Positions 4,086 to 32,067 of a stretch of DNA of 32,067 nt are shown in pieces. The stretch is from Zoogloea sp. 1C4. Its GTDB lineage: Bacteria > Pseudomonadota > Gammaproteobacteria > Burkholderiales > Rhodocyclaceae. The stretch is from the NCBI RefSeq assembly GCF_009469605.1, contig NZ_SSXU01000029.1, positions 1-32,067 on the forward strand. Reading direction: 5' to 3'. Position 1 is the stretch's first letter. Every line of letters starts with the position of its first letter. Both the position numbers and the translations under genes were made by a program. Under the pieces are notes generated by a model. It saw only the letters and a program-made list of their open reading frames with translations, made no database searches and was not told where the DNA came from.

Positions 4086-4096
4086 TTAGAGCTGGC

Positions 4097-5980: not shown

Positions 5981-5982
5981 GT

Positions 5983-7874: not shown

Positions 7875-7992
7875 TAAAAGCCTCAATCCAACCTTGCGCC
7901 AATGCATAGGTTTTTGTTGTAAACAATTTCAAATGGCTGCGATGACGGATGAAATCTATGTGAACCAATACCGTCTGTCAGCGCCAAATCAT

Positions 7993-10807: not shown

Positions 10808-13632
<2,825 letters not shown>

Positions 13633-13634
13633 GT

Positions 13635-16412: not shown

Positions 16413-16459
16413 ACGTTCGTTCCTCAAATTCTTCTTGTCATGATCGAGCGGTCACCGTG

Positions 16460-19400
16460 TCACTCGATCACGAAGCGCAGCTTGGTGGCATCCTTGCCCT
16501 TGCATCGCTCGTTCATGAAGGTGTCGAAGCGCTTGCGCAGATCGTCCGGCGTGGCCGGCGAGCCGCCTTGCAGCAGCGCCTGTTTGATCTCGTCGCCCTT
16601 GACCGCGATCTTCTCCAGCCCCGACAGCGCCTCTTGCACGGCGTTGGCAAACTCGGAGGTCATCGGGTCCGGCAGCTTGCGTGAGGCCAGGAAGGCGTCG
16701 ATCAGTTTCTTGGACGCGGGCGGCAACAGCCCCAGGCTGTCCTGCGTGAACGGGTCTTCCAGGTTCTCCAGCAGGGTCTGCTGCCAGTTGGCCACCAACT
16801 GATCCAGGTCGTCGTCCAGCTTGTGCAGGCGGTTGGCCGCCGGGATCAGCTCCAACTGCTCGGCAGACGGGCGGAACTGGCAGTGCGGGCAGACGGCGGC
16901 CGTAACCAAGGTCGGCTCATCCAGTGAGGAACAGCTCTTCAGGCCATTCAGGGATTCTTCGAAGGCGGTGAGCTGGCTGGTGGGCATCAGCGACACGCCG
17001 GCCAACACACGCAGCGCCAGCAGGCGGTCGTCCTTGCGCAGCGCGTTGCGGGTCTTGTCCTCAGCCACGCCCAGCCGCGCCTTGCTGTGGCTGGCGATGT
17101 AGGCGGTGATGTAGTCCTTCTTGAGCTGGTTGAGCGTTTGCCGATATTCGGCGGCGTGCTCGGCTGTGCGGTCCTGGCTCAGCTTTTCCTGCAGTGCCTT
17201 GCGGGCGGTTTCGGCCTGCTTCACCCACGGGTGCTCGGCGGGCAACACCATCTCGGCCTGCGAGAGGTAGGACGCCGTGCTGCCCAGCTCGACCACCAGC
17301 TCAAGCAGACGCTCGACGGCGGCCAGGATCTCCAGATTCTTCTTCTGACCGTCCAGGTCTTCCTGGGTGACGCGCAGATTCTTGAGCTTGCCGACGGTGT
17401 TGTAAGGCGCCAGCGACTCGGTGAACTTCTTCAGCGAATCCAGCCGGGCGTGCCAGTCTTTGGCTTCTTCTTCGCGCAGCATGTTCTGGCCCCAGAAGCC
17501 GAGCTTGCCTTGCTGCAGGTCGGAACCGGCCTTGAGCACACGCGGCACCAGGCCGCTGACTTTCTCCTGCAGTTTGATGACCGGCTCGGTGTCGCCCTGG
17601 CTGGCCTTCTGGGCCAGGCCGGACGGCAGGTCGAACAATTCGAACAAGGCACGCAGCACCGCGAGGTTGATCTCCTTGGGTGCCTCGACGTGCTTGAACT
17701 GTTTGAGTTCCTCCAGCGAGCGTTCTGCCAGTTGCGCCAGCTTGCCGGAATCGATCTTGTCGCCGGTGATCGACAGCACGATGTCGCCGGAATAGACCAG
17801 CCCACCCAGCACGGTGACCAGCAGATCGGGTTCCAGCCGGTACTTGATGGGCGCGAAATACTCGACGTCAGACGTGCCCGACAGCAGTTCGCTGCGGTTG
17901 AGCACCTGGCCGTGGCCCTTGGCCTTGAGTCGGTTGAGCACTTCCTGCGCGTAGCGGGAGTTGGCCGGATCGACGCGGTCGCCATCGAGCAGCTCCAGCG
18001 CATCGAGCACAGCGAGGGCATCCTTGGTGCGAGTACCGCCGGCCAGTGCGCGTAGCGCGTTGCCGATCAGTTGCTTGCGGTTGGCCTCGGTGACCAGCAC
18101 CGAGAAGGTAGGGTATTCCGGCGAGAGATCGACGAAACGCTGGCCCAGCACCAGACCTGAGATGACGTTCACCACGTCGCGGAAGTTGATGCGTTCGTCC
18201 GCACCGAGCCGCGCCCGGTCGCGCAGCGACACGCCCTTGGCCCACTCCTGCAGGTTCTTTTTCTTGCCCTGGTAGGTGACCTCGAACGCGGTCATCTGCT
18301 TTTCCTGCAGCCACTTGCTCATGGCGCGCAGGAAATCCTGTGCCTTGGAGAGGTAGATGGCCTTGGCGCCGCCGCTGGCGGTGGAGGCCAGATCGAGCGC
18401 CGCCGCGTAGGACGACAGGTGCCGCTTGAGATCATCGTCCAGCCCGGTGAGGCGGAAGAACACCTCGTCCGACAGGTTGTTGTCGGCGAACTTCGGCTTG
18501 TCGAAGGGCTGGATGAAGTAGACGTAGAAGTCGCGCTCGGGTTGGGCCGTGGGGCGATCGTTCGGCGCCCCGAAGAACAGGTAGCCCATGCGTTCAACAC
18601 GGCGCTCCTGCCATTCGAGCTGGTACTGCCAGATCTGGAAGCCGGGGTAGCGCAGGTCGTCGCTGCACTCCATCAGCGCCTTGACGGCGCTGTAGTAGGC
18701 GCGGTCAAGTGCGTCGTCTGACAGGGCTTCGGCGCGTTTTTCGATCTGCGCGTCGTAGTCGATGTCCTTCTTGAGGTCGAGGTAGTACTGCTCGGTGTCC
18801 GGTGCCTTGGAGATGAACTGGCCGTTGACGGTCTTCAGCACTTCCCGCATCACGGTCTGCACCATCGACAGCAGGTTCTCGGCCGGATCGCCCGGCATGT
18901 CCTCCACGCCCGGCTGGAACAGGCACAGAGCGTCGCGCAGCTCGGCGGCGGTGGGCCCGATGGGGATGTGGATGTCGCCACCCGTGGTCAGGCGGTGCAC
19001 GGCCAGCGCGTTGATGACGCGCAGCGCCATCGGCTTGTAGGCCGGACGCGTGAAGGCTTGCTGGACCCGCGACTCCAATACCTCGGAGACGCGCATCACT
19101 TCCTTGATGTTGGGGTCGGCGCGCAAGACCGAGTTGGTCTTGATGGTGTTCCAGAAGCTCTCGTAGCTGATGAACAGCGGCTTGTCGGTGGGCACTTCCT
19201 GATCGAGGATGGCCAGCATGGCGGACTCGATGGTCTTGAGCGCGCCACGCTTCTCGGTGAAGTGGATCTGCTCGAAGGTCTTCAGGTAGTCCGGGTGGAC
19301 CGGGAACAACCGCACGTATTCGTCCATGCGCTCGTTCATGGAGCCGTAGAACTTGGCGAACGGCGTGAGGTATTCGCGGATCTTGTTCTGCTGGTCGGCC

Positions 19401-20200
19401 GTTTTCTTGAGCAGGCGCGCGGAGACGACGAAGCTGACGTCCTGGCGGTCGATCAGGATCTGCGTGAAGCGCTCGTTGACGCGACGCATGCTGTCGGCAA
19501 CGTGCTGGAAGCGCACGCTGTCGAAGATGGCTTCCTGCACGCCGGCCACGAAGCGGAACTTCAGGTGCTTGGTGACTTCGCCAATCTGACGCAGGATGGC
19601 CAGATCCTGCACCAGTTCGTGGTCGCGACGGGACTGCAGGTACTCCAGGAACTCGTCGACAACGAGCAGCACACCCTGGTCCGGGAATTTCTCCGCGAAC
19701 GCGGCCATCATCTCCTCGAAGGAGTCCTTGTTATTGAGCTCCTTGTCGGCGGTCGGGAAGGTGTAGTCGACGCCGATCTTTTCGAGGAAACGCTCAAGCT
19801 GCAGGGTGATGATCTGGCGCAGCGGCATCTGCAGCCCGCCCACCTCGATGCGCAGCACCTTGAAGCAACCAGCAATCGGGGCAACCGCCTCGGCGACCTT
19901 GGGGTGGCGGATCATCGGAGCGTAGGCCGCATCCTCGGCCACCAGCGACAGCACCGACATCAAGTGCGACTTACCGGTGCCGTAGTTGCCGACGATCAGC
20001 ACGCCCTTGTGATCGACCGAGTCGTCGAAACTGAGCTGGGGAACCATGAGCTTGGAGATCCGCTCGGCCATGTCGTCGGAGATGACGTATGTCGCGACGA
20101 GCTTCTTGGCCTCGTCCGGGCGCCCGGCATCGAGCAGCTGAATGACTGACTCGATCTGCTCGAACTGGATCAGATCTCCGTATTTCATGTTCTTGGCCAT
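16460..20200 (-). CDS. brxC: BREX-3 BrxC/PglY, large P-loop ATPase
   Basis: This 1246-residue ATPase is the largest BREX-3 component. Walker A is GNYGTGKS (residues 71-78) and a hhhhDE Walker B-type segment, VLLVVDEFLEYLQ, follows about 100 residues later. The C-terminal half is long, helical and coiled-coil rich, with a CPHCQF pair near the end as part of a possible zinc site. BrxC is an AAA+-like protein thought to assemble with PglX and PglZ on DNA. The start at 20200 is chosen over the TTG at 20227, which would overlap brxF, because AGGGGAAG lies ahead of it. It starts 23 bases after the brxF stop. Confidence 0.92.
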   Translation of the reverse strand: MAKNMKYGDLIQFEQIESVIQLLDAGRPDEAKKLVATYVISDDMAERISKLMVPQLSFDDSVDHKGVLIVGNYGTGKSHLMSVLSLVAEDAAYAPMIRHPKVAEAVAPIAGCFKVLRIEVGGLQMPLRQIITLQLERFLEKIGVDYTFPTADKELNNKDSFEEMMAAFAEKFPDQGVLLVVDEFLEYLQSRRDHELVQDLAILRQIGEVTKHLKFRFVAGVQEAIFDSVRFQHVADSMRRVNERFTQILIDRQDVSFVVSARLLKKTADQQNKIREYLTPFAKFYGSMNERMDEYVRLFPVHPDYLKTFEQIHFTEKRGALKTIESAMLAILDQEVPTDKPLFISYESFWNTIKTNSVLRADPNIKEVMRVSEVLESRVQQAFTRPAYKPMALRVINALAVHRLTTGGDIHIPIGPTAAELRDALCLFQPGVEDMPGDPAENLLSMVQTVMREVLKTVNGQFISKAPDTEQYYLDLKKDIDYDAQIEKRAEALSDDALDRAYYSAVKALMECSDDLRYPGFQIWQYQLEWQERRVERMGYLFFGAPNDRPTAQPERDFYVYFIQPFDKPKFADNNLSDEVFFRLTGLDDDLKRHLSSYAAALDLASTASGGAKAIYLSKAQDFLRAMSKWLQEKQMTAFEVTYQGKKKNLQEWAKGVSLRDRARLGADERINFRDVVNVISGLVLGQRFVDLSPEYPTFSVLVTEANRKQLIGNALRALAGGTRTKDALAVLDALELLDGDRVDPANSRYAQEVLNRLKAKGHGQVLNRSELLSGTSDVEYFAPIKYRLEPDLLVTVLGGLVYSGDIVLSITGDKIDSGKLAQLAERSLEELKQFKHVEAPKEINLAVLRALFELFDLPSGLAQKASQGDTEPVIKLQEKVSGLVPRVLKAGSDLQQGKLGFWGQNMLREEEAKDWHARLDSLKKFTESLAPYNTVGKLKNLRVTQEDLDGQKKNLEILAAVERLLELVVELGSTASYLSQAEMVLPAEHPWVKQAETARKALQEKLSQDRTAEHAAEYRQTLNQLKKDYITAYIASHSKARLGVAEDKTRNALRKDDRLLALRVLAGVSLMPTSQLTAFEESLNGLKSCSSLDEPTLVTAAVCPHCQFRPSAEQLELIPAANRLHKLDDDLDQLVANWQQTLLENLEDPFTQDSLGLLPPASKKLIDAFLASRKLPDPMTSEFANAVQEALSGLEKIAVKGDEIKQALLQGGSPATPDDLRKRFDTFMNERCKGKDATKLRFVIE

Positions 20201-20223
20201 ATGGTTTTCACTTCCCCTGTACG

Positions 20224-20679
20224 TCAAATTTCTAGAACGACCACGCCGTCACGGCTGTAGTCGCGATGTTCTGGATGGCTCATGTCGGCGTAGATCAGCC
20301 GATCACCGCGCAGCTCGCCCGGCCAGACGGCCACGACGCGCTTGGAGTGCGCCAGCCGCTTGACCAGGTCAAGCGGGTTGATTTGCAGGCTGGGCTCGAA
20401 CAACAACTCCAGGTTGTCAAGCAGCAGCGGGGCTTCAGCACGTTCCTTGTCCGCGATCTCCCGCAGCAGTTCGCCTGCCGAGAAGCCGCGCTTGTTGTTC
20501 GGCGTGGCGGCCAAACGGCGCCCCAACTCCAGGCCGACGTTGAGCGGCTCGATGTTGAGCTTGGCGCTGAGTTGGCGCAGCAGTTGGGTCTTGCCACTGC
20601 GGCTGGGACCGACCAGCAGGATCAACTTGCTGTTGAGGTCGCCGATTTCGCCGATGAGTCGTTCGAGTTTTGCGAGCAT
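20224..20679 (-). CDS. brxF: BREX-3 BrxF, small P-loop NTPase
   Basis: From 20679 this is 151 residues. Walker A GPSRSGKT (residues 24-31) is followed by a Walker B-type LLLDNLELLF. BrxF is the small ATPase that marks type 3 BREX and stands first in its core operon, as here. The start at 20679 is preferred to an in-frame ATG at 20685 because GAGGGG is eight bases from the former and directly abuts the latter. It begins 10 bases after the brxR stop, so regulator and system are probably transcribed together. Confidence 0.88.
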   Translation of the reverse strand: MLAKLERLIGEIGDLNSKLILLVGPSRSGKTQLLRQLSAKLNIEPLNVGLELGRRLAATPNNKRGFSAGELLREIADKERAEAPLLLDNLELLFEPSLQINPLDLVKRLAHSKRVVAVWPGELRGDRLIYADMSHPEHRDYSRDGVVVLEI

Positions 20680-20689
20680 GCTCATCCCC

Positions 20690-21604
20690 TCAGTCCGACT
20701 CGGCTTCGAGCCGTTGTTGATCAGGGGAGCGGTAGCCAGGCGCCAGCACGGCATTTCGCACGCCATAGATGGCCAGGTGGTCCTTCAGCCACAACCGATA
20801 CTCGTGCCCGCGCAAGCTGTGGTCGGGCGTGCAGTCCACACTCCATTGGCGAAGGATGTAACCGGCGGTGGCTGCCCGCAGCTTCATCCGCAGCACGCCA
20901 CCCTGCATGCTGTAGTCCATCTCGGTGATCTCCGGCCGGGGTTGATCCGGGTGCGGCACCAGCTCCAGCTCGACGAACCGGGTCCACTGAATGTCCTGAT
21001 CACTCATCTCGTGGGGAGCCACAGGCTGCCCCTTGAGCACCATCGGGCGCTTGATCCGGGTGATGACGAAATCCCGGAACTCCTGCGACTTCCGGTCGAA
21101 GGCGCGGACGTGCCAGCGCAGACCGTTGTCGATCAGCGCGAACGGGACGATCTCCCGCTCGGTGCGGCCACTGGAGATGGAGTTGTACTCGATGCCGAGC
21201 GGACACTCTTGGTGGATCGCCCGGGTCACGCTCGCCAGCACATCCAGATCCGGATGCGTGAGCCGTGACGGGCTCTCGCTGGCCACCCACGCCTTTAGCC
21301 GCATCGGCTCGCCGTCGCCAAAGCCCCGGGTCAGCCACGACAGCACCCGCTCCGGGGGGAAGTCGAAGACTGGCCGAAAGTCCGGCCCCAGGACGTAGGA
21401 CTTGCCCTTGGAGTCGTAATCGATGTTGCCCGGGGCTAACTCCTTGTACAGCGCCAGATCCCTGGATGCGGCGGCGGACTGGATGCCAAACCGCGTGACC
21501 AAGTCCTGACGGCGTATCTCCCCGATGAAGCGCACGCGCAACTCCACAAACGCGAGCCGGTCGCGTTGTGGCTGGGTTAGATCTGTAAGCTGTTCGGTTG
21601 GCAT
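20690..21604 (-). CDS. brxR: BrxR-type WYL-domain transcriptional regulator
   Basis: This 304-residue regulator has an N-terminal winged helix-turn-helix (about residues 12-75, including RRQDLVTRFGIQSAAASRDL), then a WYL domain (about 130-215, with LRWHVRAFDRKS) and a C-terminal WCX-like region. BrxR proteins of this build repress BREX promoters and may respond to a ligand such as nucleic acid through the WYL domain. The gene lies between the divergent promoter region and brxF, 10 bases upstream of the latter. The start at 21604 removes a 30-residue upstream extension that would run through the promoter elements. It probably binds the direct repeats at 21629-21680 and controls both itself and perhaps the opposite operon. 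Confidence 0.88.
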   Translation of the reverse strand: MPTEQLTDLTQPQRDRLAFVELRVRFIGEIRRQDLVTRFGIQSAAASRDLALYKELAPGNIDYDSKGKSYVLGPDFRPVFDFPPERVLSWLTRGFGDGEPMRLKAWVASESPSRLTHPDLDVLASVTRAIHQECPLGIEYNSISSGRTEREIVPFALIDNGLRWHVRAFDRKSQEFRDFVITRIKRPMVLKGQPVAPHEMSDQDIQWTRFVELELVPHPDQPRPEITEMDYSMQGGVLRMKLRAATAGYILRQWSVDCTPDHSLRGHEYRLWLKDHLAIYGVRNAVLAPGYRSPDQQRLEAESD

Positions 21605-21628
21605 CCTATTCGGCTCACGCGGGTTAGG

Positions 21629-21680
21629 TAGAATGTGTGCGGATTGTTGCGAAGAGTATATGATGTACTTTAGAATGTGT
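21629..21680. promoter_or_regulatory. Two exact 10-bp direct repeats around the brxR promoter
   Basis: TAGAATGTGT occurs at 21629-21638 and again at 21671-21680, 42 bases apart centre to centre, about four helical turns. The second copy touches the brxR -35 box and the first lies just downstream of the expected transcription start. Placement on one face of the helix either side of a promoter is what a cooperative repressor site would look like. Confidence 0.55.
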
Positions 21681-21683
21681 CCA
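21655..21683 (-). promoter_or_regulatory. Sigma-70-type promoter for brxR and the BREX operon
   Basis: On the minus strand TGGACA (21678-21683) and TATACT (21655-21660) are separated by exactly 17 bases. Each differs from consensus at one position. Transcription would start near 21648, about 44 bases before the brxR start codon. Confidence 0.7.
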
Positions 21684-21696
21684 TTGGTGTTCAATG

Positions 21697-21724
21697 TTCA
21701 CATCGTGCGTCGCATAATGATAAT
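21697..21724 (+). promoter_or_regulatory. Sigma-70-type promoter for the five-gene operon
   Basis: TTCACA (21697-21702) and GATAAT (21719-21724), spaced 16 bases, each match consensus at five of six positions. The -35 box is only 13 bases from the -35 box of the divergent brxR promoter, so the two promoters stand back to back. The leader to the helicase start would be about 77 bases. Confidence 0.6.
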
Positions 21725-21732
21725 CATTGCGA
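21710..21732. promoter_or_regulatory. Palindrome over the -10 region, resembling a Fur box
   Basis: The centre AATGA-TAA-TCATT is an exact palindrome and TCGCA/TGCGA flank it. The 15 bases ATAATGATAATCATT (21714-21728) are identical to the core of the classical 19-bp Fur box consensus. It covers the -10 box of the operon promoter, a repressing position. Whether Fur, BrxR or another dimer binds cannot be told from sequence. Confidence 0.5.
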
Positions 21733-21807: not shown

Positions 21808-24800
21808 ATGGCCAATCTTTACGTCTGGGTTGACGACAGGAACCGTGAACGTGTTTCGCGCACGGTAGGAGATCTGGCGCGCCGACATCCTCAGTTCCGG
21901 GATTTCCTGAGCGGGGGCGATAGCATCGAAGGTGTCTTGAATCTGCTGTTCCCACACGGGATGCCGATGGAGTACCACGGGGCGAACCTCAGCATCGAGA
22001 ACCGCCCTGACGATAACTTGAACCTTGCTCTTCGCCCGGTCATCAACCCGGAGCAGCCCTGGCCGTTTCCCAGGGGATGTTCGTTGGCGGTAAGGGGCTT
22101 CTGGCCGACTCGCGTTCCCAGCCCTGTGTTCATGGTTCAGGACTTGTTTGAAGTCGCTGATGCGCCTGGGCACAGCTACGAGCGCAGCCTTTCGGTGGTG
22201 GTGTATCAGGACAACCCGCAGCTGCCACGAATCCAACGCAACAACAATGCCTTGACTCGCGAGTTGGCATTCGAGCTACCTCCCATTTCAATCACCACCC
22301 GGGAGAAATTGGTCGATTGGACCGAATTCCTGAAATGGAAGCGCAAGCTCGTGTCGGAGAAAACCCGTGGGTTGAGGTTTATTCAGCGCGAGTGGCAAGA
22401 GGACAGGATCGTCTTCAGCGTGATTGGCGAGAGCGAGCAGTCCCTGCGTGAAGTTCATCGGTCGCTCTCACGACAAGACGTGATGGCATTTGACCTTAAT
22501 GTGTCTGTCGATCCCTGGACCTTTCGAATCAGCGATCGGGAAGGGGCTAAGCGTGCTCCGAGAGGTTTTGAACTCGGCCAACCTGAGGCGATGGCGAAGA
22601 TCGCTCCACACAAGGACAAGATTAAGGACTGCGAATGGAATGAGCCACACCTCGCTGAAGTCGTGGTTGCTCTCTCTGAAGACGATCAGAATCAGCTAAC
22701 AGTTGCGGAAGACTTGGCGAACATTCGCCAGATGATCCTCTCCAGAATCCCTGAGCAAGGGTTCTTGTCCGTATCAGCTGCGGGTGATCTTGCTTTGATT
22801 CGGCGCCATGAGATGGCGATCAAGCGCTTGCAAGATCAGGGAGGCTATGCCCCTTACCTCTCCTCCTACCTGTTTGATGCCCGACAAGCTAAGAAGCCTT
22901 CAGCCAAAGAATCGATCACGCACTGGTTCCGAGATGATCTGAACCCATTCCAGAAAGAGGCAGTCGAGAAGATCTTGACCGCGCCTGACCTTTGCCTGAT
23001 TCAAGGGCCGCCGGGAACTGGTAAGACAACCGTGATCGCCGAAGCCATCATGCAATTGGCCCGTCGCGGTGAGCGCGTACTGCTGGCCAGTCAAGCCCAC
23101 ACGGCCGTTGACAACGCACTAGAACGGCTCGGCAAACATCCTGATTTGCGAGTCATTCGTTTGGCGCGCGACCTGGATAAAGTCTCTGGTGATGGAAAGT
23201 CCTTTGTCCAGCAAGCGGCTTTGTCCCGGTATTACTCATCCCTGGCGGAGCATGCGAGCGACCGATTCTTGAAGCCTTGGCGTGAAACCGCCGATCGGAT
23301 GAGCCAGCTTCAGTCCTGGCTGAACAGAGCCGAGTATGTGCGCCGCGACATTGTCGAAGCACAAAGAGGTATTGCTCTATACGAGCAAGGTCGTGTCCGG
23401 GCAAAGCTTGAGAGAGACTTGGCCTGGCAGAGGCTGCAGGAGCAGGCACAGAAGCACGAGGACGCGAAACGAAAGCGGAACCGCCTTTCGACCCTAAGGG
23501 AATTCTTGGTGACAGGTGACGATGATGTTGCAGATGGCTGCCCGCTGCCTGAACCACTGTCATCAGAGCTAGCTTCCAGCCTCTTCGGGTTGACGATAGC
23601 GCGAACAAAGCTCCCGGTCTCGAAGGCCGATTGGGACGCCGTGCCACAACAACGTCCTCAAATGCTTGCAGGACTGGTGAGGTGTTGGCGCAAGTTGAGG
23701 ACACGTGAACAGGAGCTGGAGAAGGATGTGGCTCGCTTGTATGCGGCGGGGCCACGATCTCTACAGAGTCCTGATGTGGCTATTCGCATTGCGGAACTGG
23801 AGGCCGAAGAAAAGGCCCTGGCTGAGCGGGTTGACGATGACGATAGCTTGGTCTCGGCCTGGAGAGCCAAGCGTCAGGAGATCAAGCAACTTCGAAACAG
23901 TTCTGCCGGTGGGCTGAGTGCCGATCTGTACAGCGATCTCTTCGTGGACGCTGATCGCTGGTGTGCGGCCATCGACAACGCAGAACAGGTCGGCGCAGAG
24001 CTTGCCGATCGTTTGGCCACATTGCGTACCAGCAATGCGGCCATTGATCAGGCTTTGGAACGACTGATTGCAGAGGTGCACAGGCTCATTGATCTCTGTG
24101 AGGTTCCTGAAATCGATGAATCTGAGTGGCGGCAGCGCGAACTGGAGCTCGAGCAGCACATCAGGACAGAGCCGAGGGTAAATCAGTCCCTGACAAGTTC
24201 TCTTGCCCGTGCATCAGAGCTTCTTCTTGCGCAGGCAGCAGAAAACTCTGCAAACGACAAACCAGTTGATGTCGCTGCCTTGCTCAGCCAAGAAATCTTG
24301 GTTCGTCAAGGCGAAGTCCGCACGCTGGAGGAACAAATACAAAATCAGAAGGATGAGCAGTATGTGTGGGGGCAACTGATCCAGGACTGGGTGAATGATC
24401 TTCGCAGGCCTGCTTCAGCCCAGTCTGATTGGGAGCACTTCAAAGAAGTCTATGTGCCGCAGTGCAACGTCGTCGCCATCACATGCAATGAACGTGAACA
24501 AACGCTCGAAGACTCTGGTCAGGTAAGTTTTGACGTTGCGATCATCGATGAAGTCAGCAAGGCGACTCCTCTGGAGATGCTGCTGCCCCTAATGCGTGCG
24601 CGGCGCTCGATCCTGGTGGGTGACCACCGTCAGCTTCCGCCACTGTTTCAGGAGGGGGCAGATGCCCAGACATTCAGCGACGTGGTTGAAGAGGCGGAGC
24701 AAGACGAGCAAGAGAGTCGAACGGCTTTGACCCGGCAAAATCTGCACCGATTCGAAAAGATGGTTACGGCATCCTTGTTCAAGTCGCACTTTGAAGCGGC

Positions 24801-25752
24801 AGACGATGCGATCCGCGCACGCCTCGAGGTTCAGTTCCGTATGCATCCGCAGATCATGACAATGGTGAACCATTTCTATGAGCGCCGCCTGACCTGCGGG
24901 CTAGCGTTCCCAAATTACGATCGAAATCACGGGCTGGTGCTGGTAGACGCGGATGGGAAGACCATCATCAAGCCCGCGCTTGACGGCGAGGGCAATCGAA
25001 TTCCCAAAAACATCAGTTTGCCGTCGTCAGAAATTCCTCGTGAAGAAAAAGAGAAAGTCGTTCACGAGGGTGACCACGTCCTGTGGGTGGATACATCTCG
25101 CAATTTGGAAGGGCAGATCCACAAGGAGGACATGGACGCAGCGGGTAAACCTGCGCGTAGCAACCGCCTCGAAGCACAGTTGATTGCCCACACATTGCTT
25201 CAGCTCGACAAGCAGAGCGCCCTTCTTGGATATTCACCTCAAAAGCGGCGTCAAGTCGGCGTGGTTTCCTTCTACGCGCGTCAATGTAGGTTAATCCGCG
25301 AGGCGATCCGTGCGGTTAAACCTTCCGGGCGATTCGAATGTCTGGATGTAGAGGTCAACACCGTAATACGGTATCAGGGCAAGGAGAAACCAATCATTCT
25401 GGTTAGTCTGGTCCGCAATGACGGAATCGACACCAGAAGTCAGGGTATGGCAAGGCGCAGGTCTAGTCGTGCGAATGTCGCACGATACGAGTTCATCAAC
25501 GTGGCCTTCTCTCGAGCGCAGGAGCTACTGATTGTTTTTGGTGCAAGAAGTATGTACGAGTCATATGAGGTAACGCTGCCGCATATGGATCGAGAGGGCT
25601 CAACGACACGCACGGTTTACAAGGACATTCTCGATCAGCTGGATAGAGACGCCCGTCTGATTCCGGCGAGCCGACTCATGCGAAACGACAACCCCGGTCA
25701 GCGCAAGTTCTCGCCGCGACCCAGCAACGGCAATCGAGGTAATCAGCGATGA
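21808..25752 (+). CDS. SF1 helicase, UPF1/DNA2-like, first gene of an unnamed five-gene operon
   Basis: This 1314-residue protein has SF1B helicase motifs: Walker A GPPGTGKT (400-407), the Q-motif-like LNPFQKEAVEKIL just before it, IIDEVSKATPLEM (Walker B, D914/E915), GDHRQLPPLFQ, LEVQFRMHP, VNTVIRYQGKEK and YEFINVAFSRAQ (motif VI). These are the AAA_11/AAA_12 halves of UPF1-like helicases. About 500 residues separate motifs I and II, largely charged and coiled-coil-like, an unusually long insertion. The N-terminal 380 residues have no domain I recognise. It probably unwinds or translocates on DNA or RNA. Its stop overlaps the PIN-protein start (ATGA). GC is about 50-57%, below the BREX genes. 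No strong ribosome-binding site precedes the ATG. Confidence 0.85.
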   Translation: MANLYVWVDDRNRERVSRTVGDLARRHPQFRDFLSGGDSIEGVLNLLFPHGMPMEYHGANLSIENRPDDNLNLALRPVINPEQPWPFPRGCSLAVRGFWPTRVPSPVFMVQDLFEVADAPGHSYERSLSVVVYQDNPQLPRIQRNNNALTRELAFELPPISITTREKLVDWTEFLKWKRKLVSEKTRGLRFIQREWQEDRIVFSVIGESEQSLREVHRSLSRQDVMAFDLNVSVDPWTFRISDREGAKRAPRGFELGQPEAMAKIAPHKDKIKDCEWNEPHLAEVVVALSEDDQNQLTVAEDLANIRQMILSRIPEQGFLSVSAAGDLALIRRHEMAIKRLQDQGGYAPYLSSYLFDARQAKKPSAKESITHWFRDDLNPFQKEAVEKILTAPDLCLIQGPPGTGKTTVIAEAIMQLARRGERVLLASQAHTAVDNALERLGKHPDLRVIRLARDLDKVSGDGKSFVQQAALSRYYSSLAEHASDRFLKPWRETADRMSQLQSWLNRAEYVRRDIVEAQRGIALYEQGRVRAKLERDLAWQRLQEQAQKHEDAKRKRNRLSTLREFLVTGDDDVADGCPLPEPLSSELASSLFGLTIARTKLPVSKADWDAVPQQRPQMLAGLVRCWRKLRTREQELEKDVARLYAAGPRSLQSPDVAIRIAELEAEEKALAERVDDDDSLVSAWRAKRQEIKQLRNSSAGGLSADLYSDLFVDADRWCAAIDNAEQVGAELADRLATLRTSNAAIDQALERLIAEVHRLIDLCEVPEIDESEWRQRELELEQHIRTEPRVNQSLTSSLARASELLLAQAAENSANDKPVDVAALLSQEILVRQGEVRTLEEQIQNQKDEQYVWGQLIQDWVNDLRRPASAQSDWEHFKEVYVPQCNVVAITCNEREQTLEDSGQVSFDVAIIDEVSKATPLEMLLPLMRARRSILVGDHRQLPPLFQEGADAQTFSDVVEEAEQDEQESRTALTRQNLHRFEKMVTASLFKSHFEAADDAIRARLEVQFRMHPQIMTMVNHFYERRLTCGLAFPNYDRNHGLVLVDADGKTIIKPALDGEGNRIPKNISLPSSEIPREEKEKVVHEGDHVLWVDTSRNLEGQIHKEDMDAAGKPARSNRLEAQLIAHTLLQLDKQSALLGYSPQKRRQVGVVSFYARQCRLIREAIRAVKPSGRFECLDVEVNTVIRYQGKEKPIILVSLVRNDGIDTRSQGMARRRSSRANVARYEFINVAFSRAQELLIVFGARSMYESYEVTLPHMDREGSTTRTVYKDILDQLDRDARLIPASRLMRNDNPGQRKFSPRPSNGNRGNQR

Positions 25753-28181
25753 AGTTGGGATCTTTCTCTGTCGGCATGCCGCTCTACGAAGTGGAGTCGG
25801 AGGTGACGTACCAGACCGTGCGCACGCCGACAGTATTTGAGCGGACGGTAATGAAGCTATGCGGTAGCTATCGGGCGACCCCGGGGCTCGCTGACATGAC
25901 GCTGTCTCAAATATTTGAGCATCAACTTGGCGTGGCTTCGGCCAATGAACTGGTCGGGCCAAGCGTTGAAAATCTGATCTACATGGGCGTCTTGAGCGGC
26001 CCAACATCGCAAGATTATATGGATCTTCGGCTCGCAGAGCTTGCGCTTACCGCCGATGGCGTGACATTTCTCGAGCGAGATCGGTTGCCTAGCCGGTCTC
26101 AGCAAACGACCGTATCACACTTGTATTTTCCGCTTTCCAATTCGATCAAGCCTCATCGAAGTGAAAATCGGCTAACAAGATCACCTAGCCGTCCGTTCAT
26201 CGCAGGTGCAGTGCTTGAGCCTTCCGATTGCTCCGCGTTGGTTCGGGAGTCTGTCGAAAAAGAGCGGCATGCTTGGAGAACCCCGAATACTGAGATTCAC
26301 TCCGTTCAACCCAAAGTTGTCGGAGTTGTTTGGGAGCAGCATCAAGTCACGCTGGAGTGTGATGAGTCAGGCGTACTTGCTGTCAGCGCGAAGGGGGCTC
26401 CTGACTTCCAGCGATGGCTGGCAGCAGCAAATCCCGAAGTGATCTGGGAACACGTTCTAGAGCCAATCCTCGCCAGTGAGGCAGCATCCGATTGGCCAGC
26501 GCTCAGTGAAGCAAGCGTTCGCAGTGCTGTTGCGATTGCTCTGCAGGGCGCAGACTCTCCAGTTGATCGTAACAAGGCGACCCCATCGAGGGCAGCGCTG
26601 CGCGTATTGGTTGATGAGGATCAGCTGGAAAATCACATTGGCGAAGACATCGTTCTGCTGAAAAATGACGGTCATGTCTTCCAGCGGTTGACCGCGCTGT
26701 TCAGAGGTGCTGATCACGCCCTTCGTCGGCTGCCATCTCAAAAGGGAACGATCTGGCTTGAAATGGCTCCGCCATCGGATCTGCCAACAGGATTTGACGG
26801 ATTGGTGCTTCGCAAAGACGATCACGCACCAGAGGTGCGAATGACTGGATCGTCGCGAGTCTTTTGGGCGGGCCAGGAGCGTCGAGCAGTGCTCACGCTG
26901 ACCGCCGAGAAAGGTTCCAGCGCGCGCGTTTGGCAAACTGTGCAGACCGAGTTGAGTGCCGCCCTGAGTTCGGCACAGCCTGCTGACGTCTATGCGATCG
27001 CTTCGCTGTGGGAAGCGCCACAGGAAACCATTCTGCGCTGGCGATCGCGAGTCGAGGCATTGCCTATCGGCGAGTTGCTCACAGACGCCTCTGGCTTCAT
27101 CACCACGCTGGAGCGATTTTCATCCGATGCTGGGGATGGTTGGCGAGCAGGCTGGTATAGCGCCTTGGCGGATCGCCTGATGTCGGCGATCGAGCGCTTG
27201 GCTGATGGCGTTGATCTCGCCGAGGTGTTGGCCTATTTCGCCGGAGTCGAACGGCTGATGCCAAATCAGTCGGATGAGATCAAGTCTGCTCTTTTGAAGC
27301 ACTGCCACCCGATCTCTGATACCGAGTCGCTGGATTCGCTCCGCAGAGCTGTCGGGCCATCACTATCCCTGCCTGATGCCGTGATTGGCGATGCGCTTCT
27401 GCAGACCTGGGTCGCCCAAGTCCTGGCCGATTCCAGTTTGGCCCTTCATGGCCCCCATTCGTATTCACAACCACTGACGGCGATTAGGTCCGCTCATCAA
27501 GCGGTGCTGCGCGATGTTGGCCTGAAATCCCTTCAGGATGCCTCCAAGGGAAGCCTTAGCCTTCAAGGCGTGAAGACTTCTGCTCTGGCCAGCGTCACAA
27601 AGTGGCAGGAGGCTTGCAAGAATGTTCTTAATATGCGGAGCTCACTCACGGGCGACACACTTTTGCCGATTCATCAATTTGATGGGTTGGTCGGTTCATG
27701 GCGCGAACTGGCAGTGCAGAAACTTGCGTACCCGACAACGCCCGGCCAAAGACTAATCGTGCTTGATACCAATGCCTTGATGTTGGCCCCCGATCTGCTC
27801 ACTACCATGCGTCGAAACGACATTCCTGTTGTTGCCCGACGCGTGCTTGAAGAACTGGACGGAATCAAGGAATCCTCCGAAGAGGAAAGAGCCCAGAAGG
27901 CTCGGGCCGCAATTCGTTCTTTGGAGCGTGCCGGGCAAGCCATCCGCTACGAGTCTGAGGTGCTGGATCTTTTGCCGCCAGACTGGGAGCCAACAGCAGA
28001 CAATCGAATCTTGTCGGTGGCGCTCTATCTCCGGCTGAGTGACGTCATCGTGGTGACCGGCGACAGAAACTTCAGAAACAAGGCGCGTGCAGAGAACATC
28101 ACTGCCATGCTGCCGGAAGAGTACAGGGGTGGAAGTCCAAATCAGACAGGACGTCGCGACGCAGGAGGAAAACGTAAATGA
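25749..28181 (+). CDS. Large protein with C-terminal PIN nuclease domain
   Basis: This 810-residue protein ends in a PIN domain (about 668-795). The conserved acids are visible in order: LIVLDTNALM (D673), VARRVLEELDGIK, TADNRILSVAL and VVTGDRNF. All four acidic positions of an active PIN ribonuclease appear intact. The N-terminal 120 residues contain a possible winged-helix-like region ending LALTADGVTFLERDRL. The central 500 residues are unrecognised. It is coupled by four-base overlaps to the helicase before it and the coiled-coil gene after it. A likely role is RNA (or single-stranded DNA) cleavage guided or triggered by the helicase and the AAA+ partner. That is inference. Confidence 0.8.
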   Translation: MKLGSFSVGMPLYEVESEVTYQTVRTPTVFERTVMKLCGSYRATPGLADMTLSQIFEHQLGVASANELVGPSVENLIYMGVLSGPTSQDYMDLRLAELALTADGVTFLERDRLPSRSQQTTVSHLYFPLSNSIKPHRSENRLTRSPSRPFIAGAVLEPSDCSALVRESVEKERHAWRTPNTEIHSVQPKVVGVVWEQHQVTLECDESGVLAVSAKGAPDFQRWLAAANPEVIWEHVLEPILASEAASDWPALSEASVRSAVAIALQGADSPVDRNKATPSRAALRVLVDEDQLENHIGEDIVLLKNDGHVFQRLTALFRGADHALRRLPSQKGTIWLEMAPPSDLPTGFDGLVLRKDDHAPEVRMTGSSRVFWAGQERRAVLTLTAEKGSSARVWQTVQTELSAALSSAQPADVYAIASLWEAPQETILRWRSRVEALPIGELLTDASGFITTLERFSSDAGDGWRAGWYSALADRLMSAIERLADGVDLAEVLAYFAGVERLMPNQSDEIKSALLKHCHPISDTESLDSLRRAVGPSLSLPDAVIGDALLQTWVAQVLADSSLALHGPHSYSQPLTAIRSAHQAVLRDVGLKSLQDASKGSLSLQGVKTSALASVTKWQEACKNVLNMRSSLTGDTLLPIHQFDGLVGSWRELAVQKLAYPTTPGQRLIVLDTNALMLAPDLLTTMRRNDIPVVARRVLEELDGIKESSEEERAQKARAAIRSLERAGQAIRYESEVLDLLPPDWEPTADNRILSVALYLRLSDVIVVTGDRNFRNKARAENITAMLPEEYRGGSPNQTGRRDAGGKRK

Positions 28182-29311
28182 GCAGACATGACGAGGCACG
28201 CTATCAGATCGAACGCCAACGGCGTCAGGATCTTTTTAACCAGCGTGTTCGAGAAACGACTCGCACTTACCTCGCACGATATCGCGGCATCCTGGAGGAT
28301 GTGCAAAGCCAGGGGCTCAACGAATATGTTCAGGCAGAGTTCTCTGAGCTGGAGAGGGAGCTGGCAAGCCTGACTCGCCTTGTCGAGAGCGATCCTGCCG
28401 CTGCGCGTGACCGCAGCATTGAGTTGGGGCGACAGGTGCATGCACTGCCACGACATGCACGCGGAATGAGACAGGCATACGTCGAAGCACAACGCCAAGC
28501 CGAAGAAGCCGCCAGAGAAGAGGCTCGCCGTAGAGTCGAACAAGAGGCTAAAGCGCGGGACGAGTTGGAAACCGCATGGCAAGACGAGTTGATGCGGTGG
28601 GCGGACCCATTGGCCAGGCAATTGGCTTTCAAAGCGCTGTCCGAGGCTCGGGCACGCCTGATGGGGGCGAATAGCCAAACGTCGATCGCTGAGCTGCGAA
28701 CGGCGATTGGGACGATCAAGGCCGAATACGAGCAGCGATCTCGGCAGATCAGAGAGAAGGAGTCCAAAGCAGCAGAGGAAAGTGCGTCAGTGGATGCGTT
28801 GCAATTATGTCGTGAGCAGATCGCGTCCGTCGGTGGTGGAGCTGCAGAGCGCGCTCAAGCATTGGGATCGATGCTCAATTCAACCAGCGCGATGTCGCCC
28901 GAAGAGGTTTCTAGGCGACTGGTTGAAATCACCCGAGATCTCGATGCTGTCGTGGTTGACGAGAGTTGCAGGCGGGAGGTTGTTCAGGCCGTATACCGCG
29001 CACTGGAGGACGCTGGGTTTGTCACGGAAAAGCCTCGACTCGTTCGCGAAGGTAGCTCCAACGAGGTAGTGATTCGCGGAAAACGCCCCGCTGGTGCCCA
29101 GGCAGAGTTCAAGGTTGAGCTCAGTGGAAAGCTGAATTACAAGTTTGATCACTATCACGGCGCTGCGTGCAAAAAGGACATTGATACGGTCCTGCCGCGA
29201 CTGCAATCAATCTATGGAATACAGCTTTCCACCGAACGCACGATTTGGGAGAACCCGGATGACAAGGACAGCGATGCGAAGCCACAGCCTGGCATGACAA
29301 GGGAGAAGTAA
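28178..29311 (+). CDS. Coiled-coil protein of the five-gene operon, function unknown
   Basis: This 377-residue protein is extremely rich in R, E, Q and A from about residue 5 to 215, with runs such as EAQRQAEEAAREEARRRV, consistent with a long coiled coil. A more ordered C-terminal domain (about 260-345) contains VVIRGKRP, FKVELSGKLNYKFDHYHG and CKKDIDTVLPRL. That end might be a substrate-binding or cofactor domain. No known family is recognised. It starts by an ATGA overlap with the PIN gene, and its TAA is followed at once by the ATG of the ATPase, so a fixed complex is likely. The coiled coil could be an adaptor or scaffold between the Clp-like ATPase and the nuclease. Confidence 0.7.
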   Translation: MSRHDEARYQIERQRRQDLFNQRVRETTRTYLARYRGILEDVQSQGLNEYVQAEFSELERELASLTRLVESDPAAARDRSIELGRQVHALPRHARGMRQAYVEAQRQAEEAAREEARRRVEQEAKARDELETAWQDELMRWADPLARQLAFKALSEARARLMGANSQTSIAELRTAIGTIKAEYEQRSRQIREKESKAAEESASVDALQLCREQIASVGGGAAERAQALGSMLNSTSAMSPEEVSRRLVEITRDLDAVVVDESCRREVVQAVYRALEDAGFVTEKPRLVREGSSNEVVIRGKRPAGAQAEFKVELSGKLNYKFDHYHGAACKKDIDTVLPRLQSIYGIQLSTERTIWENPDDKDSDAKPQPGMTREK

Positions 29312-31165
29312 ATGGCATCTGGACAAACATCTTGGCAAGACGCTTTCCTTCGGGAATGCGGCATTCGGAGAGGGATCATCCTGCACGGCAATGTTGTCGA
29401 TGTGGTGGCTGATCCAAGCTCGCTTGATCGTTGGCAGAGCGTGCCCGACGCAGTGGACACTATTCTCAAGCAGCGTGGTTATCGTCACGTGATCCGATGG
29501 GATCGTGTTGCAGGCGTTTCCGGCGTCGACTCGAGAACCTGGCGAGAGCTGGCGGCATCTGCCGTTGCCACTGCGCCTCCTGCGGCAGGAGAAGACTACG
29601 ATATGGGCGAACCGCTCGCCCCCAGTCGCCAAGTTCAGGACACGGGTTCACTTGAGGTAACCCCACAGGACTTTCTGTCGGTGGTTTCGCGTTTGATGAA
29701 GCAGCCTGGTCCAGATCGCGTTGCGTTCGTTTTGGACTGGTCACATCTCCTGTTTGGACAAGCCAATGCCTTGAGCGAAGCCGAAAGAGGATGGTTGCTG
29801 ATGATGGGCAAGGCGACCAGGGATGCGCAAATTACGCTCAGCCCAGCCGATGTAGATAGGCCGCAAACACTGATGGTCTTCCTGTGTCAGGGGCTCTCGG
29901 TCTTGCCGCCATCGCTCTATCTGAATAACCCGCTGTTCAAAGAAATCAATGTCCCCCTGCCATCTCGTGTCGTGCGGGAGGCCGCCGTGCTTCAGCTTTC
30001 TTCTGTACTCAGTGTTGAGCCGCCAGTGCTTCCTAAGAGCCGAGTCCTCGCAGATATTGTCGACTCCCTAGAGGGGCTCACACTTCGCGACATTCACAAT
30101 CTTGCGAAGCTTTCGCGCCAGCTGCCGAAGATGAGCGCTGAGTCGTTAGTCAGCATGTATCGCTACGGTGAACGCCATAGCCCGTGGGAGCAATTAAACC
30201 GGGACAAACTTGGCAAGGCTGTCGAGACACTGAAAGTCCGAGTCAAAGGCCAAGATCAAGCAATCGATGCAGTCAATCAGATCCTAGTTCGGGCATACAC
30301 CGGATTGTCAGGGCTGCAGCATTCCAGCAAGCAAAGAACACCGAAAGGCGTATTGTTCTTTGTCGGCCCTACTGGCGTGGGCAAGACGGAACTGGCCAAG
30401 GCCCTCGCGCAGTTTCTGTTCGGCGATGATGAGGCCTGTCTTCGATTCGATATGTCGGAGTTTAATCACGAGCATGCTGATCAGCGCTTGGTCGGAGCGC
30501 CTCCAGGCTACGTTGGCTATGAAGAAGGAGGGCAGCTCACCAATGCAGTCAAGAAGCGCCCATTCTCCTTGCTTCTATTCGACGAGATCGAAAAGGCGCA
30601 CCCGAGGATTCTTGATAAGTTCCTTCAGATCCTGGAGGACGGAAGACTGACTGACGGCAAGGGGGATACCGTTCTGTTTTCCGACACCGTTATCGTGTTC
30701 ACGTCGAACATTGGGGCGGCACAGATCGAAGCGGACAACCCGGACGCGCGATCAGCCTTTGTCGAGAGAGTCCGTGCGCACTTTGTGAATGAACTGAAGC
30801 GGCCGGAATTGCTTGGCCGTATCGGCGAGGGGAACATCATCCCATTCAACTTTATGGCGGATGACAAGTTTCTCGTCGACATTGCTCGATCAAAGCTCGA
30901 GCCACTACGGCACCGCCTCAGCGAAAAATGGGGAGCTTCTGGGCTGCAATTCGTTGACGAGACCAAGGCGCTGCAGTCGATCGTTGGCATGGTCGATCGA
31001 AGCAGCGGAGGGCGTGGTGTTCTCAACGCGCTGACAATTTACTTGTTCGACCCACTAGCTCAGTTCCTATTTGATCAGGTCGGCTCGCCAGACAGATCGC
31101 AAGGTCGAACCATTAGGGTTGTACAAGCTGGGTCCAAACCGAACTTCGACTTCGAACTGGAGTGA
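29312..31165 (+). CDS. Clp/HSP100-like AAA+ ATPase with an extra N-terminal domain
   Basis: This 617-residue protein contains a second-type Clp AAA+ module in residues about 320-600: Walker A GPTGVGKT (352-359), RFDMSEFNHEHA, LVGAPPGYVGYEEGG (pore-loop region as in ClpB), LLLFDEIEKAHP (Walker B, D424/E425), VIVFTSNIG (sensor 1) and ELLGRIGEGNIIPF (arginine finger R503). The N-terminal 300 residues begin GIILHGNVVDVV and include a Walker-B-like VAFVLDWSHLL, but I see no Walker A, so this may be a degenerate AAA domain. It differs from ClpB and ClpA in lacking a normal first AAA ring. It probably remodels a protein or nucleoprotein complex made by its operon partners. Confidence 0.85.
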   Translation: MASGQTSWQDAFLRECGIRRGIILHGNVVDVVADPSSLDRWQSVPDAVDTILKQRGYRHVIRWDRVAGVSGVDSRTWRELAASAVATAPPAAGEDYDMGEPLAPSRQVQDTGSLEVTPQDFLSVVSRLMKQPGPDRVAFVLDWSHLLFGQANALSEAERGWLLMMGKATRDAQITLSPADVDRPQTLMVFLCQGLSVLPPSLYLNNPLFKEINVPLPSRVVREAAVLQLSSVLSVEPPVLPKSRVLADIVDSLEGLTLRDIHNLAKLSRQLPKMSAESLVSMYRYGERHSPWEQLNRDKLGKAVETLKVRVKGQDQAIDAVNQILVRAYTGLSGLQHSSKQRTPKGVLFFVGPTGVGKTELAKALAQFLFGDDEACLRFDMSEFNHEHADQRLVGAPPGYVGYEEGGQLTNAVKKRPFSLLLFDEIEKAHPRILDKFLQILEDGRLTDGKGDTVLFSDTVIVFTSNIGAAQIEADNPDARSAFVERVRAHFVNELKRPELLGRIGEGNIIPFNFMADDKFLVDIARSKLEPLRHRLSEKWGASGLQFVDETKALQSIVGMVDRSSGGRGVLNALTIYLFDPLAQFLFDQVGSPDRSQGRTIRVVQAGSKPNFDFELE

Positions 31166-31168
31166 CCC

Positions 31169-31750
31169 GTGTCTTGGTTGAATCTGGCGTCATGGATACC
31201 TTGCACGGAAGTTGAGGGGCCTGGAAAACGTGCGGCACTCTGGGTCCAAGGCTGCGATAAGCGTTGTATCGGGTGCTGCAATCCGGGCTACCTGAAGATC
31301 ATGGAACGCGACATTCTGAGTGCGGAGACCATGATTGAACGCTTGCTCGCGGCACACGATGAGTGGGATCTGGAGGGGGTCACATTCCTTGGTGGCGAAC
31401 CATTTCTTCAGGCGCAGGGACTTGCTGTGGTAGCCGAGGCGGTATCACGTGCAGGGTTGTCGGTCATGACGTTCACCGGCTACACGCTTCAGGAGCTGAA
31501 AGATTTGTCACTCCCTGGCACTCGTGGCTTGTTGGCATGGACCGATGTGCTCGTCGATGGTCCTTACGAAGCCTCGAGCCCAGACCGCTCAAGGAACTGG
31601 GTCGGCTCCACAAACCAGCGATTTCACTATCTGACAGACAGGTACAGCGCTTCTATTGAGGGGGCAGATATTCCGGATCGAGAGGTAGAGTGGCGAGTCC
31701 GCGATGACGGCCGATTGGTCGTCAACGGCTGGCCTTGCACCATCAGATAG
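31169..31750 (+). CDS. Radical SAM activase-like protein (NrdG/PflA type)
   Basis: This 193-residue protein has the size and motif order of the small activases NrdG and PflA. C29, C33 and C36 in GCDKRCIGCCN bind the [4Fe-4S] cluster. TFLGGEPFLQ is the SAM-binding motif, and MTFTGYTLQEL and VDGPYE follow as in NrdG. Such enzymes make a glycyl radical on a partner enzyme, but no glycyl-radical enzyme is present here. A GTG start lies three bases after the ATPase stop, so it is the last gene of the operon. It may modify a protein of the same operon (the ATPase or coiled-coil protein). That partner is unknown. Confidence 0.85.
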   Translation: MSWLNLASWIPCTEVEGPGKRAALWVQGCDKRCIGCCNPGYLKIMERDILSAETMIERLLAAHDEWDLEGVTFLGGEPFLQAQGLAVVAEAVSRAGLSVMTFTGYTLQELKDLSLPGTRGLLAWTDVLVDGPYEASSPDRSRNWVGSTNQRFHYLTDRYSASIEGADIPDREVEWRVRDDGRLVVNGWPCTIR

Positions 31751-31955: not shown

Positions 31956-32067
31956 TCCGTGGAGGCCATTTGGTTTAAGTCAGGCCGGCGTTTCGGCCTG
32001 ACTGGCGAGTTGCCGGTAGTAGTTTGCCTCAGCTTCGGCCGGGGGGATGTAGCCGATGGGTTCGAGC
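31941..32067 (-). mobile_element. Right end of an IS3-family insertion sequence (partial)
   Basis: The end of an IS3-family OrfB gene lies on the minus strand with its stop 39 bases inside a TGAACCGCCCCG-type terminal repeat, whose TG start is typical for IS3 elements. The rest of the element, its other end and any target duplication lie beyond the window. Confidence 0.75.
31980..32067 (-). CDS. IS3-family transposase OrfB, C-terminal end
   Basis: The last 28 codons before TGA (31980-31982) read LEPIGYIPPAEAEANYYRQL followed by a short tail. This is the near-invariant C-terminal signature of IS3-family (IS2/IS51-like) integrase-core transposases. The 5' part is cut off by the window edge. 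It points out of the island and has no role in the neighbouring operons beyond possible mobilisation or boundary formation. Confidence 0.85.
   Translation of the reverse strand, partial: LEPIGYIPPAEAEANYYRQLASQAETPA

Follow-up and report, generated by a model that had tools for sequence, protein, structure and literature searches.

A co-inherited five-gene cassette combining a UPF1-like helicase, a PIN-domain protein, a Clp-type unfoldase and a radical SAM enzyme, a candidate undescribed defence system in Zoogloea sp. 1C4

In the genome of Zoogloea sp. 1C4 (assembly GCF_009469605.1), five genes packed on the forward strand of contig NZ_SSXU01000029.1 encode, in order, a superfamily 1 helicase, a protein ending in a PIN nuclease domain, a coiled-coil protein, a Clp-type AAA+ unfoldase and a radical S-adenosylmethionine (radical SAM, rSAM) enzyme. 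The stretch of DNA analysed, hereafter the window, is this whole contig of 32067 bases, one of the 140 contigs of a 5.0-Mb genome, and the cassette occupies positions 21808–31750. Sequence comparison with its relatives identifies the cassette as a discrete, co-inherited and horizontally moved five-gene unit. A defence role is likely from the genomic context; that the cassette is an undescribed system against phages or mobile elements, in which a nuclease pair would be gated by an unfoldase and an rSAM enzyme, is probable, though with somewhat less assurance.

Structure and inheritance of the cassette

The cassette begins with the gene of a UPF1/SMUBP2/DNA2-like helicase (21808–25752; 1314 amino acids; Pfam AAA_11/AAA_12), followed by that of an 810-residue protein (25749–28181), which joins an N-terminal part of about 660 residues without a recognised fold to a C-terminal PIN nuclease domain (PIN_4). 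The third gene (28178–29311; 377 residues) encodes, according to its predicted structure, a coiled-coil protein with a small C-terminal domain, the fourth (29312–31165; 617 residues) a ClpB/ClpC/Hsp104-type AAA+ unfoldase (AAA_2), and the fifth (31169–31750; 193 residues, GTG start) an NrdG/PFL-activase-like rSAM enzyme (Fer4_12). Two four-base ATGA overlaps are followed by a TAAATG abutment and then by a 3-base gap. All the open reading frames lie at the coordinates first noted, and the initial annotation, which had described five tightly packed same-strand genes with these junctions, was borne out.

Relatives were sought in 84,980 species genomes with an rSAM alignment as the query, and 80 of the 382 relatives were kept. 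Profile searches of the open reading frames at these 80 rSAM loci found both the Clp protein (>600 bits) and the rSAM enzyme in 39; the census depends on two rSAM peptide patterns and gives a lower bound. Of these 39 loci, 32 have the complete set of five genes with order and strand unchanged, including one whose helicase gene has an in-frame stop (L037), one with the helicase in two pieces (L048) and one whose second gene lacks a recognisable PIN domain (L060). Six further loci end at a contig edge inside the cassette (L014, L029, L032, L035, L046 and L051), and the last one, L017 (2314–4216), holds the Clp protein from about residue 206 together with the rSAM enzyme, 2.4 kb of unrelated DNA lying upstream. 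Outside the 39, L049 (7789–10576) carries a decayed copy that consists of a helicase fragment, the last 66 Clp residues and the rSAM gene.

The genes are also close together and share their history. Gaps of at most 30 nt, computed with script-chosen start codons, were seen at 35 of 38 helicase–PIN junctions, 41 of 44 PIN–coil junctions, 41 of 44 coil–Clp junctions and all 45 Clp–rSAM junctions. For 35 loci, the distance matrices of the five proteins were compared in all ten pairs, which gave Mantel correlations of 0.92–0.99; none of 1000 permutations was as high. In a midpoint-rooted tree of 89 rSAM sequences, all 45 cassette rows and the decayed L049 form one clade (99/90). The initial annotation had reckoned with the possibility that the five genes rarely co-occur; instead, they are evidently kept together.

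Carriers in the genome scan were beta-, gamma- and alphaproteobacteria, Microbacterium and Paenibacillus, in addition to metagenome bins, which can be contaminated, called Ruminococcus, Synergistaceae, Cloacimonadota, Lentisphaerae, Thermogutta and Myxococcales. When the coiled-coil and Clp proteins were searched against 72,556 plasmid records, the same gene order was found on plasmids of Moellerella, Polaromonas, Photobacterium, Acinetobacter and Leisingera. The cassette is nevertheless rare: the coiled-coil protein occurred in 1 of 398 genomes of a phylum sample, namely the window's own. Among viral contigs, none of the 80 Clp relatives kept out of 218 was accompanied by a further cassette component, and the coiled-coil protein was unmatched in phage records. 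None of 5426 E. coli genomes holds 80% of the coiled-coil/Clp stretch of L018, and 5372 of them hold a short clpB-like match.

Properties of the encoded proteins and the proposed mechanism

The helicase is matched by AAA_11 (136.7 bits) and AAA_12 (105.4 bits), and its nearest solved structures by profile are SMUBP-2, DNA2 and UPF1; against the NCBIfam family NF040671 (PLuB) it reaches 152 bits, the cut-off being 999. Its Walker A motif (residues 400–408; 23005–23031, on the forward strand like all cassette features below) and Walker B region (residues 914–918; 24547–24561) are invariant in all 36 aligned sequences, which are the 38 helicases found apart from those of L037 and L048, and Cys893 is also invariant. 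In the second protein, PIN_4 is matched at residues 670–787 (70.4 bits). D673, E702 and D772 of the PIN domain (residues 668–790; 27750–28118) are kept in all 37 aligned sequences and D751 in all but one; the alignment omits L060 and the copies cut by contig ends. Because both active sites are intact, it is plausible that the helicase and the PIN protein, as a pair, sense and cut nucleic acid.

By profile, the closest solved relative of the PIN domain is SMG6/EST1A (E 8.5e-10), and the bacterial Thermus protein TTHA0540 also matches (E 3.7e-4). In a Foldseek search with the AlphaFold model of the second protein (mean predicted local distance difference test score, pLDDT, 85.5; predicted template modelling score, pTM, 0.54), SMG6 tied with TTHA0540, followed by Nmd4, among whose structures is one in complex with the Upf1 helicase domain. 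In view of this tie, the likeness to SMG6 is a resemblance and no proof of an RNA target. The same search yielded no convincing fold for the N-terminal part. Conservation is lowest in this part and in an insert of the helicase (mean identity 0.27 for both, versus 0.72 for the Clp ring), which fits surfaces that face an invader in an arms race. A second gene without a recognisable PIN domain was observed at L060 (5874–7022), and probably also at L032 (2–1120), which begins at a contig end.

No Pfam family matched the third protein. Its AlphaFold model (mean pLDDT 82.6, pTM 0.48; mostly 74–82 in the small C-terminal domain and below 50 in the tail) shows long helices to residue 278, followed by four strands and one helix, and a fold search with it gave no match at E <0.001. 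The C-terminal domain (residues 281–361; 29018–29260) is the best conserved part, with a mean pairwise identity of 0.55 versus 0.36 for the coil, and contains the one invariant cysteine of the protein, Cys331 (29168–29170), kept in 44 of 44 aligned sequences. For these two reasons, we infer that this domain is the first candidate for the substrate of the rSAM enzyme.

The fourth protein is matched by AAA_2 (170.4 bits). By profile, it corresponds to the second ring of ClpC/ClpB from about residue 287 on, and to two Hsp104 chains from residue 173 on. Its N-terminal part (residues 1–290; 29312–30181) is probably a dead AAA domain, because residues 186–267 align to the sensor and lid part of an FtsH-type AAA cluster (hhalign probability 72.6, E 3.2e-5, one pair) and because one GxxxxGK[ST] motif per protein was found in the 12 Clp sequences displayed, at residue 352 in that of the window. 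The pore loop GYVG (residues 399–402; 30506–30517) keeps Y400, V401 and G402, and the Walker residues are likewise kept, in 44 of 44 aligned sequences. An IGF-type ClpP-docking loop had no shared match in the 12 sequences displayed out of the 44, which points to an unfoldase rather than the unfolding part of a protease.

The fifth protein is matched by Fer4_12 (110.2 bits) and Radical_SAM (32.9 bits); it scores 89 bits against TIGR02491, under the cut-off of 126, and 17 bits against the PADLOC model of pVip. The cysteines of its CxxxCxxC motif, C29, C33 and C36, and the following C37 (31253–31276) are present in all 45 rows of the rSAM alignment, which comprises 44 cassettes (L029 being omitted) and the decayed L049.

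From the conserved active sites and the behaviour of the protein families, the following mechanism can be proposed. The UPF1-like helicase and the second protein would load on the nucleic acid of an invader, most likely RNA, which the PIN domain would cut. The coiled-coil protein would act as an adaptor that links this pair to a Clp hexamer. The unfoldase, composed of an inactive AAA domain and a ClpB-type ring and without a docked protease, would remodel the assembly and thereby turn the nuclease on or off. The rSAM enzyme would modify a partner, in the first place the C-terminal domain of the third protein with its C331, and so set whether the unfoldase engages. Among these steps, RNA as the target is slightly favoured, gating of the nuclease by the unfoldase has a little under an even chance, and action of the rSAM enzyme on the coiled-coil protein is a tentative assignment. 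A still more specific form, which we regard as rather unlikely, is an RNA-surveillance immunity of bacteria resembling nonsense-mediated decay, with an adaptor licensed by the rSAM enzyme, discharge by a tandem pseudo-AAA/ClpB-type unfoldase, and a control module common to the FtsH ternary systems treated below; this would be a new class of immunity gated by an rSAM enzyme and an unfoldase. If the proposed mechanism holds, the cassette would provide an example, from bacteria, of cooperation between a UPF1-like helicase and an SMG6-like PIN nuclease. Apart from the viperins, radical SAM enzymes have hardly any known role in immunity.

Genomic context and competing explanations

A BREX-3 (bacteriophage exclusion) operon with a WYL protein lies divergently beside the cassette (8073–21694, reverse strand). 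Its identification rests on BrxF (NF033453, 176 bits; cut-off 50) and on BrxA and PglZ, both found by PADLOC; three large middle genes were outside the family-library scan. The gene nearest the cassette on that strand is that of the WYL protein (Pfam), and the distance between the two starts is 113 bp with the mechanically assigned TTG start of the WYL frame or 203 bp with an internal ATG at codon 31. Since promoter-like sites occur on both strands in between, the promoter region that the initial annotation supposed to be common with BREX-3 holds in the sense of a shared region; a single common promoter would be a further step. As to the margins of the window, a phage lysozyme gene (PF00959; 831–1331, forward strand) near the left end is a possible prophage remnant, and the reverse strand of the right end (31980–32067) resembles, by eye, the C-terminus of an IS3-family transposase, which may mean that an insertion element interrupted the assembly.

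Upstream flanks were available for 17 other loci (4.9–14 kb), and 18 random 10-kb stretches from the phylum genomes served as controls. BREX queries matched 4 of the 17 flanks (L021, L030, L031 and L042) and none of the random stretches; the window, where the association had first been noticed, is counted apart from these. BREX-3 is found in the window and at L021, and BrxL-bearing BREX at the other three loci, where comparison with solved BrxL served as a further check on this protein. The count leaves out L206, in which the helicase match is more distant (34% identity). The BREX-3 operon upstream of the L021 cassette (L194: 4503–13968) has a PglZ 91% identical to that of the window, and a protein 94% identical to the one encoded at 10804–13632 in the window. 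With PADLOC (E 1e-15), 200 families were matched among 85 upstream proteins (13 of the 17 loci had matches), and 67 families among 111 control proteins. Among 25 families listed for each set, those downstream of the cassettes included type I restriction, DrmD and JukA, and those of the control PDC-S06, PD-T4-6, mads, GajB and RTasHel. The neighbours of plasmid-borne cassettes include restriction-system pieces, ArdA and integrases.

Several observations weigh against the proposed defence system. No BREX was found in 13 of the 17 upstream flanks, some of them short, and the queries for the BrxL type had been drawn from a flank within the set (L201). The downstream PADLOC matches (93 families among 126 proteins, 19 of 22 loci) are close to the control, and a family count is crude, as one protein can match many models; the excess over the control is thus clear upstream and hardly visible downstream. 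The defence role that the initial annotation drew from location is partly supported by the BREX neighbours of other copies and the blank random stretches, and gains little from the downstream side. L017 and L049 are truncated copies of the unit. An RNA target is made less certain by the bacterial TTHA0540 equalling SMG6 in the fold search and by the fact that UPF1-like helicases act on DNA too. The want of a recognisable PIN domain in the second gene of L060, and probably in that of L032, indicates that the nuclease is not indispensable, which suggests a replaceable end effector attached to a core made of the other parts. C331 is not the sole candidate for modification, the helicase C893 being equally invariant. 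Finally, when a link of the third protein's C-terminus to DUF2997 was considered, 4 of 44 members matched (best E 0.014) and then 1 of 10 fragments at E 0.13; a search for the DUF2997 family found it in 1 of 150 genomes.

Four other explanations were considered. The one that survives best, though still improbable, takes the cassette as an RNA quality-control or stress machine that resides on mobile elements and is not aimed at invaders: the Clp protein would clear stalled complexes, the rSAM enzyme would serve as an oxygen or iron switch, and the SMG6/Nmd4-like PIN domain and UPF1-like helicase would echo the UPF1–SMG6 pair. An iron switch would also suit a Fur-box-like site upstream of the window's cassette (21713–21731), which agrees at 15 of 19 positions with the Fur-box consensus and is the sole site in the window that scores at least 14. 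However, among the 36 other upstream regions scored, L053 alone reaches 15 of 19 and L004 alone 14, and Fur-box regulation as a feature of the system was rejected because the site is not generally common to other cassettes. The sporadic occurrence (1 of 398 phylum genomes), the plasmid-borne copies and the BREX genes in 4 of the 17 other flanks also speak against a quality-control machine.

It is less probable still that the cassette is an accessory module working only with the BREX machinery. BREX does lie beside the window's cassette and four others, but none was found in 13 of the 17 upstream flanks, some of them short, the same queries gave no match in the downstream flanks, two different BREX types are involved, and in the window BREX is a separate operon on the opposite strand.

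Neighbouring genes bear on a third explanation. A second rSAM gene was found near 16 of 45 cassettes, a lower bound as the flank lengths differ: one family occurs near six of them (the window included), an rSAM/SPASM protein near eight, and two plasmid loci were counted by annotation. The second-rSAM queries matched none of the 18 random stretches. In the window, the first family belongs to a reverse-strand module (1977–7907) of a glycosyltransferase (1977–4085), a 376-residue protein (4856–5986), a PHP phosphoesterase (5983–6861) and the rSAM protein itself (6846–7907). This rSAM gene is near the cassette, in varied orientation, at 5 of the 39 genome loci (L018, L024, L025, L029 and L031), and was absent from the 397 other genomes of the phylum sample. 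The module also occurs on three enterobacterial plasmids, and in the two viewed it stands beside DUF262 gene pairs, in one also beside AbpA. The rSAM/SPASM neighbour comes with a JmjC-type cupin and, at some loci, a leucine-rich-repeat protein (L021: 10688–13829, L033: 10678–13927, L048: 10721–14236 and others); it matched none of the 398 sample genomes, a result that carries no weight without a known positive. The neighbour modules may either work with the cassette or only share its islands.

These neighbours, with the cupin in most of the eight rSAM/SPASM loci, would suit a cluster for peptide maturation, with a peptide as the substrate of the rSAM enzyme and quality control as the task of the other genes. 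Nevertheless, we consider this very improbable: the cassette has no small precursor gene, the neighbour modules are optional and vary in orientation, and the three enterobacterial plasmids that carry one module are outside the coiled-coil search matches. Lastly, the NrdG/PFL-activase-like sequence had led to the name activase in the initial annotation, but a system in which a cassette protein receives a glycyl radical from the rSAM enzyme is scarcely credible, and the name does not hold in that sense, since the motif R[VIC]xG[YFW] occurs in only 1 of 36, 1 of 37, 1 of 44 and 0 of 44 sequences of the partners and is conserved in none.

Comparison with known systems

The initial annotation had found no defence system to name for this set, and the wider comparison agrees: no family of PADLOC 2023 or NCBIfam June 2026 covers the five genes, no paper describing the set was found in searches of the open-licence PMC literature, and these comparisons matched no described or housekeeping system. 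A type II toxin–antitoxin system of the VapBC kind was considered and rejected; the PIN domain is the tail of an 810-residue protein, and no small gene is interposed between the abutting cassette genes. In PADLOC, the fourth protein matches PDC-M37B (101 bits) and DolB (68 bits), but the other cassette proteins match no partner model of PDC-M37B, DolB or pVip.

The nearest relatives in design are the FtsH ternary conflict systems. The 80 rSAM loci include 41 without an intact cassette, among them L049; at 15 of the 41, a gene for an AAA+ protein of one and the same cluster is found no more than 7 kb away, and the rSAM enzymes there are 43–50% identical to that of the window. Three members of this cluster were scanned: that of L079 combines an FtsH-type AAA domain with an M41 peptidase, and in those of L065 and L090 the AAA domain stands alone. 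Neighbours of L079 carry the fvmX5 and fvmX7 domains, which are named in Pfam after the FtsH ternary systems. In the tree, the cassette clade is placed among the rSAM enzymes of such loci, though no such AAA+ gene was found near its direct sisters (L052, L062, L070 and L072). This placement assigns the cassette enzyme to the rSAM family of the ternary systems, so that, judged by sequence, enzymes of one family accompany AAA+ proteins of two kinds, the FtsH type and the Clp type, each with a dead first domain.

Passages of Kaur et al. 2020 (PMC7159879) predict these systems (vWA-MoxR subsystem 3) and describe a protein in which an inactive FtsH-type AAA+ domain precedes a second domain of this type; a simpler variant includes a distinctive radical SAM enzyme, for which a peptide effector is the proposed substrate, and the effectors of ternary systems include a superfamily-I helicase "typically accompanying the PIN domain". 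The cassette likewise pairs an rSAM enzyme with an AAA+ protein that begins with an inactive AAA domain, in the cassette likely so by one pairwise profile match, but its AAA+ protein is of the Clp type (AAA_2) instead of the FtsH type, and a UPF1-like helicase, a PIN protein and a coiled-coil protein stand in place of the other components. Because no vWA, MoxR or M41 domain, nor fvmX, was found in the five proteins (Pfam, E 0.01), the cassette is, by domain content, not a member of the ternary systems; the third protein also matched none of three neighbour clusters of the FtsH-type loci. A co-inherited unit of rSAM enzyme, unfoldase and helicase–nuclease pair would make the role of rSAM enzymes in AAA+ conflict systems, so far predicted, testable in one operon.

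On the helicase side, the nearest PADLOC models are those of MkoA of Mokosh (339 and 298 bits), although the best stretch covers the profile partly and there is no curated cut-off. The other four cassette proteins match no Mko model at E 0.01, and Clp and rSAM proteins are not known to be part of Mokosh. At two Rhizobium loci (L006 and L008) and one of Aristaeella (L007), a Clp-type AAA gene adjoins a Fer4_12-type rSAM gene with a large helicase gene nearby, but nothing there matches the PIN or coiled-coil profile of the cassette, and the rSAM enzymes are very distant in the tree. The Aristaeella locus, on a plasmid (L007: 1119–18999), has a DUF4011 helicase, kinases, an FHA protein, the rSAM and Clp proteins and a phosphatase in one run.

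Nucleases beside BREX have been surveyed (PMC12839542), and PIN endoRNases are named there among those recruited as back-up effectors; these PIN domains occur beside OLD-ABC ATPases or alone, and in the main text the term Clp is absent and the sole mention of a 4Fe-4S cluster concerns BrxP. Eukaryotic nonsense-mediated decay has the same pairing of a UPF1-type helicase with an SMG6/Nmd4-like PIN domain (UPF1–SMG6 and Upf1–Nmd4), but it is a form of RNA surveillance without Clp, rSAM or an adaptor like the third protein, and the likeness is one of resemblance only. The CoCoNuTs, type IV restriction systems with a predicted RNA target (PMC11090510), include a UPF1-like helicase, CnuH, alongside coiled coils and nucleases; they are built on McrB-type GTPases, whereas the only AAA+ protein of the cassette is of the Clp type (Pfam, NCBIfam), and a term search of the main text of that paper found no mention of ClpB, radical SAM or a PIN domain. 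The five-gene system thus appears to be undescribed, while its design is not wholly new, because the control module follows what has been predicted for the FtsH ternary systems and the helicase–nuclease side recalls Mokosh and the CoCoNuTs.

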